This document shows positions 27,185 to 32,250 of a stretch of 64,000 bases of DNA, piece after piece (within the stretch, counting starts at the first letter, position 1; every line of letters starts with the position of its first letter). The notes beneath the pieces were generated by a model. The model saw only the letters and a program-made list of their open reading frames with translations, was not told the DNA's origin and made no database searches. The DNA lies in contig NZ_FUYC01000003.1 in the NCBI RefSeq assembly GCF_900167125.1, forward strand, positions 310,001 to 374,000. Direction: 5' to 3'. The position numbers and the translations under genes are program-made. Source of the stretch: Paucidesulfovibrio gracilis DSM 16080 (GTDB taxonomy: Bacteria > Desulfobacterota > Desulfovibrionia > Desulfovibrionales > Desulfovibrionaceae).

Positions 27185-28282
27185 ATGAAAGCGCCAGAAC
27201 GCTATTACGATTTTCAAAAGGATATTTCCGGTTGCGGGGTCTTCGGGGTCATCGACACCAAGCGTGGCTTGATCCCCGGACAGGTACCCATCGACGGCAT
27301 GGCCTGCATGCATGACCGGGGAAACGGTCTTGGTGGTGGGTTCGCCGCTTACGGCATTTACCCGGAGCATGCGGAAGAATACGCGTTGCATCTCATGTGC
27401 GACCACAAACAAGCGCTTGATAAGGCGAGAGAAATAATTTTTGCCTATTTCGACGTCGAACATGATGAACCAATCCCGACCCGCCAAACACCGGTGATTA
27501 CTGATCCACCCACTGTATGGCGATTTTTTGCCACTCCACGGGCCGACTGTCCCCAGGATTGCCGGGGGCTTCCCGAGGAGGACTACGTGGTTGCCCTGGT
27601 GATGAAAATTAATACCACGGTCGCAGGTGCCTATATTTTTTCCAGCGGAAAAAACATGGGAGCCTTCAAAGGCGTTGGCTACCCTGAAGACATTGCGGAA
27701 TTCTTCCGTGTAGACGAATATTCCGCCTACCTGTGGACCGCCCACAACCGATTCCCGACGAACACGCCGGGCTGGTGGGGCGGAGCGCATCCCTTCACGC
27801 TTTTGGACTGGTCCATCGTGCACAACGGGGAAATCAGTTCCTACGGCATCAACCGGCGTTGGTTATGCGAAAACGACTATCTTTGCACCATGATGACCGA
27901 CACCGAGGTCGTTGCCTATGAACTGGATCTGTTGGTGCGCAAACACGGGTTGTCCCGACGCATGGCAAGCAAGGTTTTTGCTCCGCCCTTTTGGGATGAA
28001 ATTGAACGCATGCCCAAGTCCGAGCAGGATGTGTATTCCGCACTGCGCATGACCTATGGATCCGGAATGTTGAACGGACCATTCGCCATCCTGGTTGGCA
28101 ACAGTAAAGGGTTATGGGGGCTCAACGACCGAATTAAATTGCGTCCGCTGCTGGTTGCGGAAAAAGGCGACCAGGTGTTCATGTCCAGCGAAGAGTCTGC
28201 TGTGCGAAAGGTGAGTCCTGAACTGGACAGAGTCTGGATGCCCAAGGCCGGGGAGCCGGTGATCGTCGATTTGGAGGCCTAA
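27185..28282 (+). CDS. Glutamate synthase glutaminase subunit (class II amidotransferase, GltB1 type)
   Basis: 365 residues, an Ntn-hydrolase glutaminase. The nucleophile is Cys17 in SGCGVFGV, so the first 16 residues must be cleaved to expose it. Other family segments are HNRFPTNTPGWWGGAHPF and IVHNGEISSYG. It releases ammonia from glutamine and channels it to the FMN subunit. GGAGG lies four bases upstream of the ATG. The stop TAA abuts the ATG of the next gene. A homologous domain is the N-terminus of bacterial GltB; here it is a separate protein, as in archaea. Confidence 0.92.
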   Translation: MKAPERYYDFQKDISGCGVFGVIDTKRGLIPGQVPIDGMACMHDRGNGLGGGFAAYGIYPEHAEEYALHLMCDHKQALDKAREIIFAYFDVEHDEPIPTRQTPVITDPPTVWRFFATPRADCPQDCRGLPEEDYVVALVMKINTTVAGAYIFSSGKNMGAFKGVGYPEDIAEFFRVDEYSAYLWTAHNRFPTNTPGWWGGAHPFTLLDWSIVHNGEISSYGINRRWLCENDYLCTMMTDTEVVAYELDLLVRKHGLSRRMASKVFAPPFWDEIERMPKSEQDVYSALRMTYGSGMLNGPFAILVGNSKGLWGLNDRIKLRPLLVAEKGDQVFMSSEESAVRKVSPELDRVWMPKAGEPVIVDLEA

Positions 28283-29047
28283 ATGAATGTAATCAAGGAC
28301 GACGTCGCGGTATTGGATGCCGCGGACATCTACTATCGGGAGTTCAACGAGCAGATTCGGGAACTGATCCGCCAGGGCGTCACCAGGTTCCAGCTCGACA
28401 ACGTCAATGGGCATCGCTACATCGCCACTGGGCTTGAAGGGGAGTTCCATTTTGTCATCAACGGCCTCCCGGGGCAGGATCTAGCCGCTTTCACCCGTGG
28501 GTCCGTCATCAGGGTGAACGGCAACGTTCAGGATGGTGTCGGCAACACCATGGATGACGGTAAAATTGTGGTGGACGGCATGGGTGGCGACGTTGTGGGC
28601 TACGCCATGCGAGGCGGTAAGATTTATATCCGTACCGATGTTGGCTACCGCGTGGGAATTCACATGAAGTCCTACCTCGACAGACGGCCCGTTATTGTTG
28701 TTGGCGGCAAGGCCGGGGATTTCCTCGGGGAATATATGGCCGGTGGAATTATTTTGCTTCTCGGGATGTTTTCTGATAAGCCAGATGCGCCGATTACGGG
28801 ACGAGGTCTTGGAACCGGTATGCATGGCGGCGTTATTTTCGTACGCGGCACCGTGCCGGAGCATCAGCTTGGGCCGGGATTGCGTGCGCAGCCGGTCAAT
28901 GCCGAAGACCTGGAAACCATTCGGGAACTTGTGCGGGACTATGCGACGGAACTGGACTTGGACCCCGAGGCCATTCTCGACGAGTCCTTTACAAAGATCC
29001 GTCCGTTTTCGCATCGTCCCTACGGCAATATGTATGTGCCGACCTAA
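28283..29047 (+). CDS. Glutamate synthase GXGXG-domain subunit (GltB3 type)
   Basis: 254 residues. It shows the repeated Gly-rich beta-helix of the glutamate synthase alpha-subunit C-terminus: GNVQDGVGNTMDDGKIVV, MGGDVVGYAMRGGKIYI, GKAGDFLGEYMAGGIILL and GRGLGTGMHGGVIFV. The domain is structural and helps hold the ammonia tunnel. The ATG directly follows the stop of the glutaminase gene (no gap), so coupling is strong. Last gene of the operon; yajC starts 25 bases later, so read-through into the Sec genes is possible. Confidence 0.92.
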   Translation: MNVIKDDVAVLDAADIYYREFNEQIRELIRQGVTRFQLDNVNGHRYIATGLEGEFHFVINGLPGQDLAAFTRGSVIRVNGNVQDGVGNTMDDGKIVVDGMGGDVVGYAMRGGKIYIRTDVGYRVGIHMKSYLDRRPVIVVGGKAGDFLGEYMAGGIILLLGMFSDKPDAPITGRGLGTGMHGGVIFVRGTVPEHQLGPGLRAQPVNAEDLETIRELVRDYATELDLDPEAILDESFTKIRPFSHRPYGNMYVPT

Positions 29048-29071
29048 GACGCACCGATTTCAGGAGGAATC

Positions 29072-29407
29072 ATGTTCACTTCCATCGCTCACGCCATGGG
29101 CGCCCAGCCGGGCGGCCAGGCCGCTGCCCCGGACGGAATCGCGGGCCTGCTCGCCGGGCCTTTGCCTATGCTCATTCTCATGTTCGCCATTTTCTATTTT
29201 CTGCTCATCCGTCCGCAGCAGAAAAAAGCCAAGCAGCATAAAGAAATGCTCGCGGCTTTGAAAGTTGGCGACAAAGTCATGACCGGCGGCGGCTTTTACG
29301 GTCGCATCAAGGCCATCGATCAAGATGTCCTGACCGTGGAACTCTCCGAAAATGTTGAAGTCAAACTCAATCGGGGATACATCGCCGGACCGTCCGACAC
29401 CAAGTAA
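29072..29407 (+). CDS. yajC: Preprotein translocase subunit YajC
   Basis: 111 residues. A Gly/Ala-rich N-terminus is followed by one transmembrane helix (LPMLILMFAIFYFLLIRPQQ) and the typical basic stretch KKAKQHKEMLAALKVGDKV, then a small cytoplasmic beta domain. Accessory subunit of the SecDF complex. AGGAGG lies seven bases upstream of the start. It is followed by a 127-base leader and secD. Confidence 0.95.
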   Translation: MFTSIAHAMGAQPGGQAAAPDGIAGLLAGPLPMLILMFAIFYFLLIRPQQKKAKQHKEMLAALKVGDKVMTGGGFYGRIKAIDQDVLTVELSENVEVKLNRGYIAGPSDTK

Positions 29408-29437
29408 TACGTCTGCGGCCTTCACGATTGACGAAAG

Positions 29438-29490
29438 GGCAAGCATGCGGCTGCGTCGGGCTTACCGTCCTCCGGTCGCACTTGCCTTTT
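29438..29490 (+). terminator. Terminator/attenuator-like hairpin between yajC and secD
   Basis: GGCAAG (29438-29443) pairs with CTTGCC (29481-29486), extended by TGCG/CGCA, and is followed by TTTT. A second perfect hairpin ATGCGT / ACGCAT lies at 29491-29506. It could end some transcripts before secD. Confidence 0.5.
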
Positions 29491-29510
29491 ATGCGTCTTT
29501 ACGCATGTGA
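29445..29510 (+). CDS. Possible 21-residue leader peptide upstream of secD
   Basis: ATG at 29445 with AAGGG a few bases upstream, 21 codons, then TGA. The peptide is basic at the start (Arg2, Arg4, Arg5), contains Arg-Pro-Pro at residues 8-10, and a hydrophobic Val-Ala-Leu-Ala-Phe-Tyr stretch after it. The ORF covers almost all of the terminator-like hairpin, so its translation would open that structure. No homology is known to me; it may be a chance ORF. Confidence 0.3.
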   Translation: MRLRRAYRPPVALAFYASLRM

Positions 29511-29534
29511 GAACCCTCGCCAAGGAAACTCTCA

Positions 29535-31106
29535 ATGAATTCGATTCTGCGCTGGAAAATCGTCCTGACTGTGGCGGTCGTTGTTCTGGGCGTCTACCTT
29601 GCTTTGCCTTCGCTTCCCGGCGTCAAAGGCTCCGCAATGGATAAATTTTTGCCCAACGACGCCATTAACCTGGGCCTGGATCTCAAGGGCGGCATCTTTC
29701 TGACCCTTGAAGTAGATATGGATAAGGCCGTAGAAACCAAACTGGGCAGATTGGCTCAAGAGCTTAAGGATTACGCCGAAGAACGTGGTGTGGGATTCCT
29801 GAATCCCAAGGTGCTTGAGGATCGTTCCGTCGAAGTCAATCTGCACGACACCTCACATCAGGACACCTTCGACGCCTTGTTGGAGGAAAATTTCTCCGTA
29901 TTCACCCCCACCATCACTCCCCTGTCCTCAGGCGGGGTGAGCTACTCCCTGCGTGTTTCCCAAAACTACCTGGATCGTTTCAAGCAGGAAACCATGCGGC
30001 AAACCGTGGACATCGTTCGGAACCGAATCGACCGTCGGGGAGTTGTTGAACCGGACATTCGCCAGCAGGAAGGCAACCGGATTCAGATTCAGTTGCCCGG
30101 TATGGAAGACGCGGAGCAGGCTATCAGCGTCATCACGCAGATGGGACAGCTTGAGTTTAAGATCGAGGCCTCAGGCGTGAGCGTGGAGCAGGCCCGAAAC
30201 AACCCACTCGAATACGAAGTCGCCTTTGTTCAAGACGATCCCGGCGCTCCCATCGTACTGCGGAAAAACCCGGTGCTTACCGGCGAGTACATCGCTGACG
30301 CCGCACCGAACTTTGATCGCAACAACCGTCCCTACGTCTTGCTGGAGCTTGACGGACGCGGCGCCACCATCTTTGAACAAGTTACCGCGGCAAACGTGAA
30401 CAAGCGTCTCGCCATTATCTTGGATGGAAAAGTCTATTCAGCTCCGGTAATCAATGAACGCATCGGCGGCGGCAGGGCCAGCATCAGCGGCAACTTTACC
30501 GTGCAAAAGGCCAAGGATTTGGTCACGGTGCTTAAAGACGCGTTGCCCGCGCCCGTTGAAAAGGTTGCCGAGTCCACCATCGGTCCGTCTCTCGGACAGG
30601 AGTCCATTGATAAGGGCATCAACGCTGCCGTGATCGGTCTCTCCCTGGTGATCATATTCATGGTCATCTACTATGGAATGGCCGGTGTGTTTGCGGACAC
30701 GGTGTTGTTGCTCAACCTGGTTTTGATCATGGCGGGACTCGCCGCTTTCGGGGCCACCCTGACCTTGCCGGGCATTGCCGGTATTATCCTGACCATCGGT
30801 ATGGCTGTGGACGCCAACGTGATCATCTTCGAGCGCATACGTGAAGAGTTGCGTCGCGGACTTACACCTAAGGCCGCTGTTCAGGAAGGATTTGGGCGAG
30901 CTACGTTGACCATTTTGGACGCCAACGTGACCACGGTTATCGCTGCCATCATCTTATATCAATTCGGTACCGGTCCCATTCGCGGTTTTGCCGTGACTCT
31001 GACGCTCGGTATCATCACCTCCATGTTCACGGCCATCTTCGTTTCCCGCGTCTTTTTCGACATCTACACGCGGAACAAGGGTTCCCAGGCCAAGATCAGC
31101 ATTTAA
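29535..31106 (+). CDS. secD: Protein translocase subunit SecD
   Basis: 523 residues. One N-terminal transmembrane helix, the LGLDLKGGIFLTLEVD motif, the large periplasmic P1 domain, then five helices in the RND fold (IGLSLVIIFMVIYYG, LTLPGIAGIILTIGMAVDANVIIFERIREE). The conserved aspartate and arginine of the proton path are in GMAVDANVIIFERIRE. It uses proton motive force to pull secreted proteins from SecYEG. secF follows after 12 bases. Confidence 0.97.
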   Translation: MNSILRWKIVLTVAVVVLGVYLALPSLPGVKGSAMDKFLPNDAINLGLDLKGGIFLTLEVDMDKAVETKLGRLAQELKDYAEERGVGFLNPKVLEDRSVEVNLHDTSHQDTFDALLEENFSVFTPTITPLSSGGVSYSLRVSQNYLDRFKQETMRQTVDIVRNRIDRRGVVEPDIRQQEGNRIQIQLPGMEDAEQAISVITQMGQLEFKIEASGVSVEQARNNPLEYEVAFVQDDPGAPIVLRKNPVLTGEYIADAAPNFDRNNRPYVLLELDGRGATIFEQVTAANVNKRLAIILDGKVYSAPVINERIGGGRASISGNFTVQKAKDLVTVLKDALPAPVEKVAESTIGPSLGQESIDKGINAAVIGLSLVIIFMVIYYGMAGVFADTVLLLNLVLIMAGLAAFGATLTLPGIAGIILTIGMAVDANVIIFERIREELRRGLTPKAAVQEGFGRATLTILDANVTTVIAAIILYQFGTGPIRGFAVTLTLGIITSMFTAIFVSRVFFDIYTRNKGSQAKISI

Positions 31107-31118
31107 GGGAGGCACAAT

Positions 31119-32192
31119 ATGGGACTGCAAATCATCAAACCGAACACCAGGATCGACTTTATCGGGTTTCGCCGCATAGCGTTCCTGATTTCCGCTCTGG
31201 TTATCGCCGTGGGCATCGTCTCCCTGGTTGGAAAGGGCGGCCCTCGCTACGGCATCGACTTTGCCGGGGGCATCATCATTCAGGCCAAAGTACACGCCGA
31301 GGAGCACCTGGATGTGCGAGACGTGCAGGACGCCATGAAGGCCGTGGAATTGCCTGGCCTTGTGGTCCAGGAAATCCTGAATGAAAAAAACGAATTCCTG
31401 ATTCGCACGTCGGCATCCGATGTGGATACGGAAGTGGTGCGCAACCAAGTTATGGAGAATGTCTCATCAGCCTTCAATGGTGCCGAAGTGGAAGTTCGCC
31501 GCACGGAGATGGTGGGACCGAAAGTATCCGACGACCTGCGCACAAAAGCTCTGGAAGCTCTGTTTTATGCGGTTTTGCTCATTGCGATCTATATTTCCGG
31601 ACGCTTTGAACAACGATGGATGGCCGCCGCGATCATGGCTGGGGGACTCTTCGCCGGTATTACAGCGCTTCAGTTCCTCGGTCTGTCCATCACCTTCCTG
31701 ATCTTCGGCGCCCTGGCCATTACTCTTGGTCTTTGTTGGTACTTGAAGCTCAATTACGCATTGGGAGCCGTTGCCGCGCTTCTACATGACGTCATGATCA
31801 CCGTGGGTGTTTTCTCCTTGCTCGACAAAGAGTTCGATTTGACCATCATCGCGGCTTTGTTGACCATTATTGGATACTCTCTCAACGACACCATCATCGT
31901 CTTTGACCGTATCCGTGAAAACATCAAAGGCCAGAGCGACGAACACCTCAAGGACATCATCAACATCAGCGTGAACCAGACCTTGTCACGAACCATTCTG
32001 ACATCTGGTACCACGTTGTTGGTTGTGGCCGCGTTGTTCATTTTCGGTGGAGGCGCTATCCACGATTTTGCGCTGGCACTGCTTGTCGGCATTTTTGTGG
32101 GAACCTATTCCTCGGTCTTCGTGGCCAGCCCGGTTCTGCTTGGCTTCGGACCGACTATGCCAGCGGATGCCCCAAAGGAAGCAGCCGCGTAA
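31119..32192 (+). CDS. secF: Protein translocase subunit SecF
   Basis: 357 residues. It has an N-terminal helix, GIDFAGGIIIQ, a short periplasmic domain and the five-helix RND bundle with ALLHDVMITVGVFSLL and IGYSLNDTIIVFDRIREN. It partners SecD. AGGGAGG is in the right position before the ATG at 31119. A strong terminator lies 21 bases after the stop. Confidence 0.97.
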   Translation: MGLQIIKPNTRIDFIGFRRIAFLISALVIAVGIVSLVGKGGPRYGIDFAGGIIIQAKVHAEEHLDVRDVQDAMKAVELPGLVVQEILNEKNEFLIRTSASDVDTEVVRNQVMENVSSAFNGAEVEVRRTEMVGPKVSDDLRTKALEALFYAVLLIAIYISGRFEQRWMAAAIMAGGLFAGITALQFLGLSITFLIFGALAITLGLCWYLKLNYALGAVAALLHDVMITVGVFSLLDKEFDLTIIAALLTIIGYSLNDTIIVFDRIRENIKGQSDEHLKDIINISVNQTLSRTILTSGTTLLVVAALFIFGGGAIHDFALALLVGIFVGTYSSVFVASPVLLGFGPTMPADAPKEAAA

Positions 32193-32213
32193 CCGTTTAC
32201 TGAGTAACAATAG

Positions 32214-32250
32214 AGCCGCTCTGCACCTTCGGGTGTGGAGCGGCTTTTTT
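32214..32250 (+). terminator. Terminator after secF
   Basis: AGCCGCTC / GAGCGGCT with inner CACC/GGTG pairing around a TTCG loop, followed by a T-run. A textbook intrinsic terminator. Confidence 0.92.

Follow-up and report, generated by a model that had tools for sequence, protein, structure and literature searches.

The window, which is the whole 64,000-nucleotide stretch of DNA analyzed here, comes from the sulfate-reducing bacterium Paucidesulfovibrio gracilis and carries, on the forward strand, the protein-export genes yajC, secD, and secF. The yajC gene (positions 29072 to 29407; YajC, PF02699, Pfam E-value 7.5e-31, also in the ORF list) lies 5' of the element described below. It is separated from secD (29535 to 31106; Pfam SecDF_P1_head, SecD_1st, and SecD_SecF_C) by a forward-strand gap of 127 nt (29408 to 29534), whose size and borders, as given in a first-pass annotation made from the sequence alone, were confirmed; secF (31119 to 32192; Pfam SecD_SecF_C) follows. 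In the upstream segment from 27185 to 29407, a GXGXG-domain gene lies 24 nt 5' of yajC and is itself preceded by a class II amidotransferase gene (glutamate-synthase type, Pfam). Of 30 loci examined, 17 (three of them in the window's genus) carry a relative of this glutamate-synthase-type GXGXG gene no more than 1.5 kb upstream of yajC, which fits with an operon ending at yajC. Behind secF, a terminator scan picked up a terminator-like site (32212 to 32247) whose stem has 16 pairs and is followed by T-rich sequence, and the secDF transcript therefore seems to end in the standard way.

The yajC-secD gap contains a terminator-type hairpin on the forward strand (hairpin 1; 29434 to 29490), which in predicted folds is built from outer arms AAAGGGCAAG and CTTGCCTTTT (the GGCAAG..CTTGCC arms), an inner 8-bp stem, and an apical stem, with a T-tract TTTT at 29487 to 29490. 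The first-pass annotation had pointed out the GGCAAG/CTTGCC hairpin and the TTTT behind it, and both are present, with a stem that is longer than first described. Its position had been given as almost entirely inside a 21-codon ORF, which is incorrect, as the outer 5' arm (29438 to 29443) and an AAGGG motif precede the ATG of that ORF. Hairpin 1 is G+C-rich and stable and lies on the transcribed strand, as expected of a Rho-independent terminator; the terminator scan of the window, which considers loops of up to 8 only, did not list it. The segment from 29400 to 29540 had a predicted folding energy of -46.6 kcal/mol (z = -2.16), and 3 of 200 shuffled sequences folded as well.

To place the hairpin in its family, 119 genomes drawn from the larger family were searched, a yajC match was found in 109, and the yajC-secD gap was taken for all 109, with secD starts estimated by similarity, so that some gaps are possibly misbounded (e.g., locus L192 with 5 nt, and those of >200 nt). 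A lax terminator score separated poorly at a cut-off of ≤-12 (100/109 real gaps, 38/109 on the reverse strand, and 0.606 of the shuffles). With a strict score, written after the result of the lax one was known and demanding a single hairpin directly before a T-tract (cut-off -12 kcal/mol, 20 dinucleotide shuffles per gap), a terminator-type hairpin was observed in 88 of the 109 gaps, a family count inflated by related species, compared to 8 of 109 reverse complements and 0.269 of the shuffles. The occurrence in the family is thus strand-specific, and 21 gaps lacked such a hairpin by this score. While 62 gaps, including that of the window, scored better than every one of their 20 shuffles, 47 did not; hairpin 1 itself scored -26.3 kcal/mol, compared to -15.1 kcal/mol for its shuffles. 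The terminator-like hairpin annotated earlier between yajC and secD is beyond chance, and its position is kept across the family. When loci beyond the family were grouped by hand from their record titles, leaving out 12 loci of the window's family and 2 without secD, a hairpin was found in 8/12 gaps of other Desulfovibrionales families (reverse strand, 1/12) and in 6/54 gaps of more distant relatives (reverse strand, 1/54), which makes it a feature of this lineage.

The arms are common to 11 genera: GGCAAG..CTTGCC was found in 25 of the 109 family gaps, compared to 12 of 21800 mononucleotide shuffles. The sequence between the arms differs between genera yet still folds, with no more than 20 of 200 shuffles as good in 22 of these 25 hairpins. 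Genome-wide, the arm pattern (spacer of 10 to 40; 37 in the window's own hairpin) gave 0 to 3 matches per genome in the eight genomes searched, six of which have one in the yajC-secD gap. With the pattern this rare elsewhere and found at yajC-secD, the hairpin does not look like a stock terminator of these bacteria and appears to have been inherited at this place.

Two further hairpins are predicted between hairpin 1 and secD. Hairpin 2 (ATGCGT-CTTT-ACGCAT, 29491 to 29506, forward strand) is the second perfect hairpin that had been noted as overlapping the end of the ORF, and it was found as described; two changes at its paired columns in the genus keep a standard or G-U pair. Hairpin 3 (GTGAG-AACC-CTCGC, 29507 to 29520, forward strand) is weak and has one pair broken in the sister species G001. 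The likely ribosome-binding site of secD, AAGGAAA (29522 to 29528, forward strand), lies outside the predicted hairpins (unpaired probability 0.51 to 0.53), and the start codon is unpaired at 0.69 to 0.75. We considered whether hairpin 1 hides this site and rejected the idea, since blocking hairpin 1 in silico did not free it in the predicted pairing (0.53 to 0.51 and 0.51 to 0.50 in two species, and 0.51 to 0.37 in G001). The start region of secD is thus predicted not to be hidden by hairpin 1.

The T-tract is short in the two sister species. The window has 5 T in the 8 nt behind the stem, an ordinary number (fewer are present in 20 of 89 hairpins), and the sister species G001 and G002, where TTT is followed by CG, have 4; this is the lowest class, common to 20 of the 89 hairpins, and the scorer itself demands T. 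In G001, CGAAGGGCAAG/CTTGCCTTTCG lengthens the stem of hairpin 1, and no T-tract is left behind it. With no more than TTT in the sister species, termination may be weak in this genus. Several other genera have longer T-tracts after the same GGCAAG/CTTGCC arms.

Hairpin 1 is most simply a member of the intrinsic-terminator kind. It resembles Rho-independent terminators in its G+C-rich hairpin and, less clearly, in its T-tract, placed on the sense strand between co-directional genes, and differs from them in the short T-tract of the sister species and in an inner hairpin kept beyond what termination is expected to need. Our preferred reading, which we hold with moderate confidence, is that hairpin 1 is a terminator, probably a leaky one, that stops the yajC transcript and reduces secDF transcription, with the 21-codon ORF as a chance frame. 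Hairpin 1 would then mark the 3' end of the yajC transcript, yajC would probably be read together with the split glutamate-synthase cluster upstream, and partial termination would leave transcription of secD-secF below that of yajC. This scheme implies termination in the cell, leakage, and a secDF pair that would rely on read-through and not on its own promoter, all of which we infer. In E. coli, the abundance of SecDF relative to SecYEG varies widely between studies (PMC8082313), and such figures do not decide the read-through question.

The same features could instead point to an element for RNA stability or processing, in which the longer uninterrupted stem of the window's genus halts 3'-5' exonucleases or serves as a cleavage site; of a shared mRNA, the yajC segment would then be preserved and the secDF segment lost more quickly. 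The short T-tracts of the two sister species, the lengthened stem of G001, and three predicted hairpins in a row within conserved sequence would all agree with this, and intercistronic protective structures are known (PMC5927463, whose reference list names puf). Like such protective stem-loops, hairpin 1 is stable and lies between one gene and the next; it differs from them in the longer, terminator-like T-tracts found behind the same arms in several other genera. We regard a stability element as rather unlikely.

The ORF itself (21 codons plus TGA, 29445 to 29510, forward strand; MRLRRAYRPPVALAFYASLRM), with its ATG and the Shine-Dalgarno-like AAGGG (29435 to 29439) before it, had been correctly described. 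The first-pass annotation went further and saw an attenuator layout, in which translation of the ORF melts hairpin 1 and RNA polymerase continues into secD. In keeping with this, all three species of the genus compared have the ATG with an AAGG in front, and the start of the peptide, MRLRRA[YH]RPP, is kept, its Arg-Pro-Pro part reading YRPP or HRPP. Arg accounts for 5 of the 21 codons (6 in G002), including one Arg-Arg pair, and we know of no link of arginine to secDF.

Several observations speak against such coupling. ATG-initiated ORFs of at least 10 codons run across the hairpin in 22 of the 89 hairpin-bearing relatives, compared to 0.226 of shuffled gaps, and in 46 of 89 compared to 0.631 when GTG and TTG starts are allowed; the shuffling does not preserve the hairpin. 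Such an ORF is thus not beyond chance in the family and is not a family feature, and chance alone should place a short ORF over a conserved hairpin in roughly one of four such gaps. Of the start and stop examined in the gap alignment of the genus, the start held in 3/3 species, whereas the stop is present in 2/3: in G001 (locus L090), TGC replaces TGA, and the prolonged frame stays open up to a TAA that abuts the secD ATG (TAAATG). The eight variable columns of the ORF in the three species fall 3/2/3 on codon positions 1/2/3, while approximately 71% of the variable columns of secD fall on position 3 (three or fewer of eight at position 3, given 0.71, has P = 0.05), indicating that changes in the ORF show no codon periodicity.

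Moreover, the AAGGG is paired inside hairpin 1 in the predicted folds, with a mean unpaired probability of 0.12 over AAGGGCAAGC, and the 10 nt before the ATG are unpaired at 0.12, 0.17, and 0.10 in the three species; an accessible leader ribosome site ahead of the terminator, as a leader-peptide attenuator would have, is absent from these predictions. With the AAGGG and start codon mostly paired, translation would have to begin before RNA polymerase has advanced another 45 nt or so. Taken together, the chance-level ORFs in the family and, in the three species of the genus, the lost stop, the missing periodicity, and the paired ribosome site make leader-peptide control unlikely, and we consider melting of hairpin 1 by translation of this particular ORF highly improbable. 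The ORF, which we judge fortuitous, is probably an accidental reading frame over the hairpin. What stands of the earlier proposal, as a reading, is some action at the level of termination, with which the kept position of the hairpin across the family agrees; its coupling to translation of the ORF found no support.

Leader-peptide transcription attenuators of the trp/his type form one comparison class. The locus is like them in the overlap of an ORF with a terminator-type hairpin and in the frequency of one codon type, here Arg, and unlike them in that the ribosome site of the ORF lies in the hairpin stem and no antiterminator fold was seen in the folds computed.

A short ORF with Pro-Pro upstream of secD is also reminiscent of the Sec/YidC arrest peptides (SecM, VemP, ApdA/ApdP, and RAPP-like uORFs). 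Published searches for arrest peptides have asked for a localization signal, a conserved sequence at the C terminus, and a spacer of >30 residues that reaches to where the arrest sequence ends, and stallers from random libraries carried RxPP (x = Ser, Ala, Gly, or Pro) or HGPP (PMC7897499/PMC10987492); in PMC7897499, a Shine-Dalgarno-hiding hairpin is described for SecM and predicted to be absent for ApcA, ApdA, and ApdP. The ORF here, with 21 codons and Pro-Pro at residues 9 and 10, cannot provide a spacer of >30 residues. Its YRPP or HRPP stands mid-peptide and is neither a RAPP-like C-terminal motif nor RxPP with Ser, Ala, Gly, or Pro, and no localization signal was evident by eye in the 21 residues. 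The locus also differs from one with a SecM-type hairpin in that hairpin 1 does not cover the secD ribosome site in the predicted pairing. An arrest peptide of the Sec/YidC kind (SecM, VemP, ApdA/P, or RQH) was rejected on all three counts of spacer, C-terminal motif, and Shine-Dalgarno hiding.

If hairpin 1 were instead a full terminator, secD would have a separate promoter or DNA operator in 29487 to 29534, and conservation there would be that of the promoter region. The stretch from 29492 to 29534, up to secD, does keep 37 of 43 columns in the genus, and the stretch behind the hairpin is 0.61 to 0.94 identical in genus g8. In addition, 8 of the 28 gaps with TTGCCT in the 3' arm, belonging to five other genera (loci L100, L102, L106, L108, L115, L122, L125, and L130), have a TA-hexamer exactly 17 nt past it. 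This 17-nt signal is, however, absent in the window's genus, none of the eight hexamers has 4/6 consensus matches plus A2 and T6, and spacings of 10, 12, 14, and 24 give 5 to 6 TA-hexamers each. As these counts are similar to that at 17 nt, an overlap of terminator and secD promoter in the five genera can be called possible at most. No sigma70-like promoter was found by the promoter scan in the yajC-secD gap of the window, and sigma70-like sites behind the hairpins of 83 gaps were not in excess (mean score 5.27, compared to 5.48 in shuffles). We consider a separate promoter or operator very unlikely. It was also noted that conservation of the gap in the genus starts at about TTGACG (29428 to 29433), which resembles a -35 hexamer; a -10 to go with it at 16 to 18 nt was seen neither by eye nor in the sigma70 scan.

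Returning to hairpin 1 as a leaky terminator, its conservation within the genus is higher than this reading accounts for. In the three-species alignment, 101 of the 127 columns of the gap are identical, with 10/23 in its first 23 nt, 51/58 in the hairpin (29434 to 29491), and 33/36 in the inner hairpin (29445 to 29480), while four-fold degenerate sites of secD are identical in the three species at 0.35. The hairpin is not the best-kept stretch, as 217 of 7316 segments of 58 nt equal or exceed it in conservation; the 60 of these that were listed start at 28697 to 28756, inside the GXGXG gene. In pairwise comparisons (14 genera chosen by hand; 18 of 100 pairs dropped for lack of a called hairpin in both), the inner hairpin is 0.89 to 0.91 identical in the window's genus at a four-fold identity of 0.45 to 0.55. 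Among other genera, none of 37 pairs with a four-fold identity of up to 0.60 reaches 0.89 (range, 0.04 to 0.74), compared to 5/27 pairs at 0.60 to 0.80 and 6/15 closer pairs. Changes at paired columns mostly keep the pairing (four one-sided, one two-sided, and two broken), and two bases of the apical loop of the inner hairpin differ in G002. From these three species, the RNA structure seems to be kept for more than termination, or under some other constraint. A plain terminator leaves the identity of 0.89 to 0.91 in the inner hairpin unexplained, and this conservation hints at an extra, genus-specific RNA role.

One such role would be that of a regulated attenuator, with a protein or small molecule recognizing the conserved inner hairpin of the genus and no leader peptide involved. 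The contrast of the inner hairpin with the four-fold sites of secD, and the fact that diverged pairs of other genera stop at 0.74, would fit with this. Against it, the pattern is found in three species only, with the two differing apical-loop bases in G002, no alternative fold was seen in the folds computed, the gap has no Rfam match up to an E-value of 5, and no partner is known; we consider such an attenuator quite unlikely. A more specific version, in which an ancestral yajC-secD terminator gave rise to a genus-specific sensing RNA, a three-hairpin secD leader whose inner hairpin would bind a protein or metabolite and set read-through into secDF, is a speculative idea to which we give slightly less credence still. 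If the inner hairpin were a sensor, it would offer a way of controlling SecDF without an arrest peptide.

For the preferred reading of a leaky terminator, the family comparison carries a broader implication, as a terminator-type hairpin usually stands between yajC and secDF in the family, unlike in most of the more distant relatives examined. With this hairpin in the majority of family gaps, and yajC often found after a gene of the glutamate-synthase type, the level of SecDF may be set apart from that of YajC. Overall, hairpin 1 is real and largely ordinary, and the oddity is how little the inner hairpin has changed within this genus.

We found no description of the element in the opening parts of abstracts on secDF control, Desulfovibrio transcription, and yajC. 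A known RNA family was rejected, given the lack of an Rfam match on the gap; covariance models run on 28900 to 29900 gave two minus-strand matches (E-values of 1.8 and 3.8), both far below the gathering scores and outside the gap. A repeated or mobile hairpin was likewise rejected, since the genome has one full copy and the three other matches span just 14 nt. When 297 genomes of the order were searched, the element turned up in the three species of the window's genus and nowhere else; five further matches were short and had no yajC or secD within the 1.7 to 3.0 kb examined around each.
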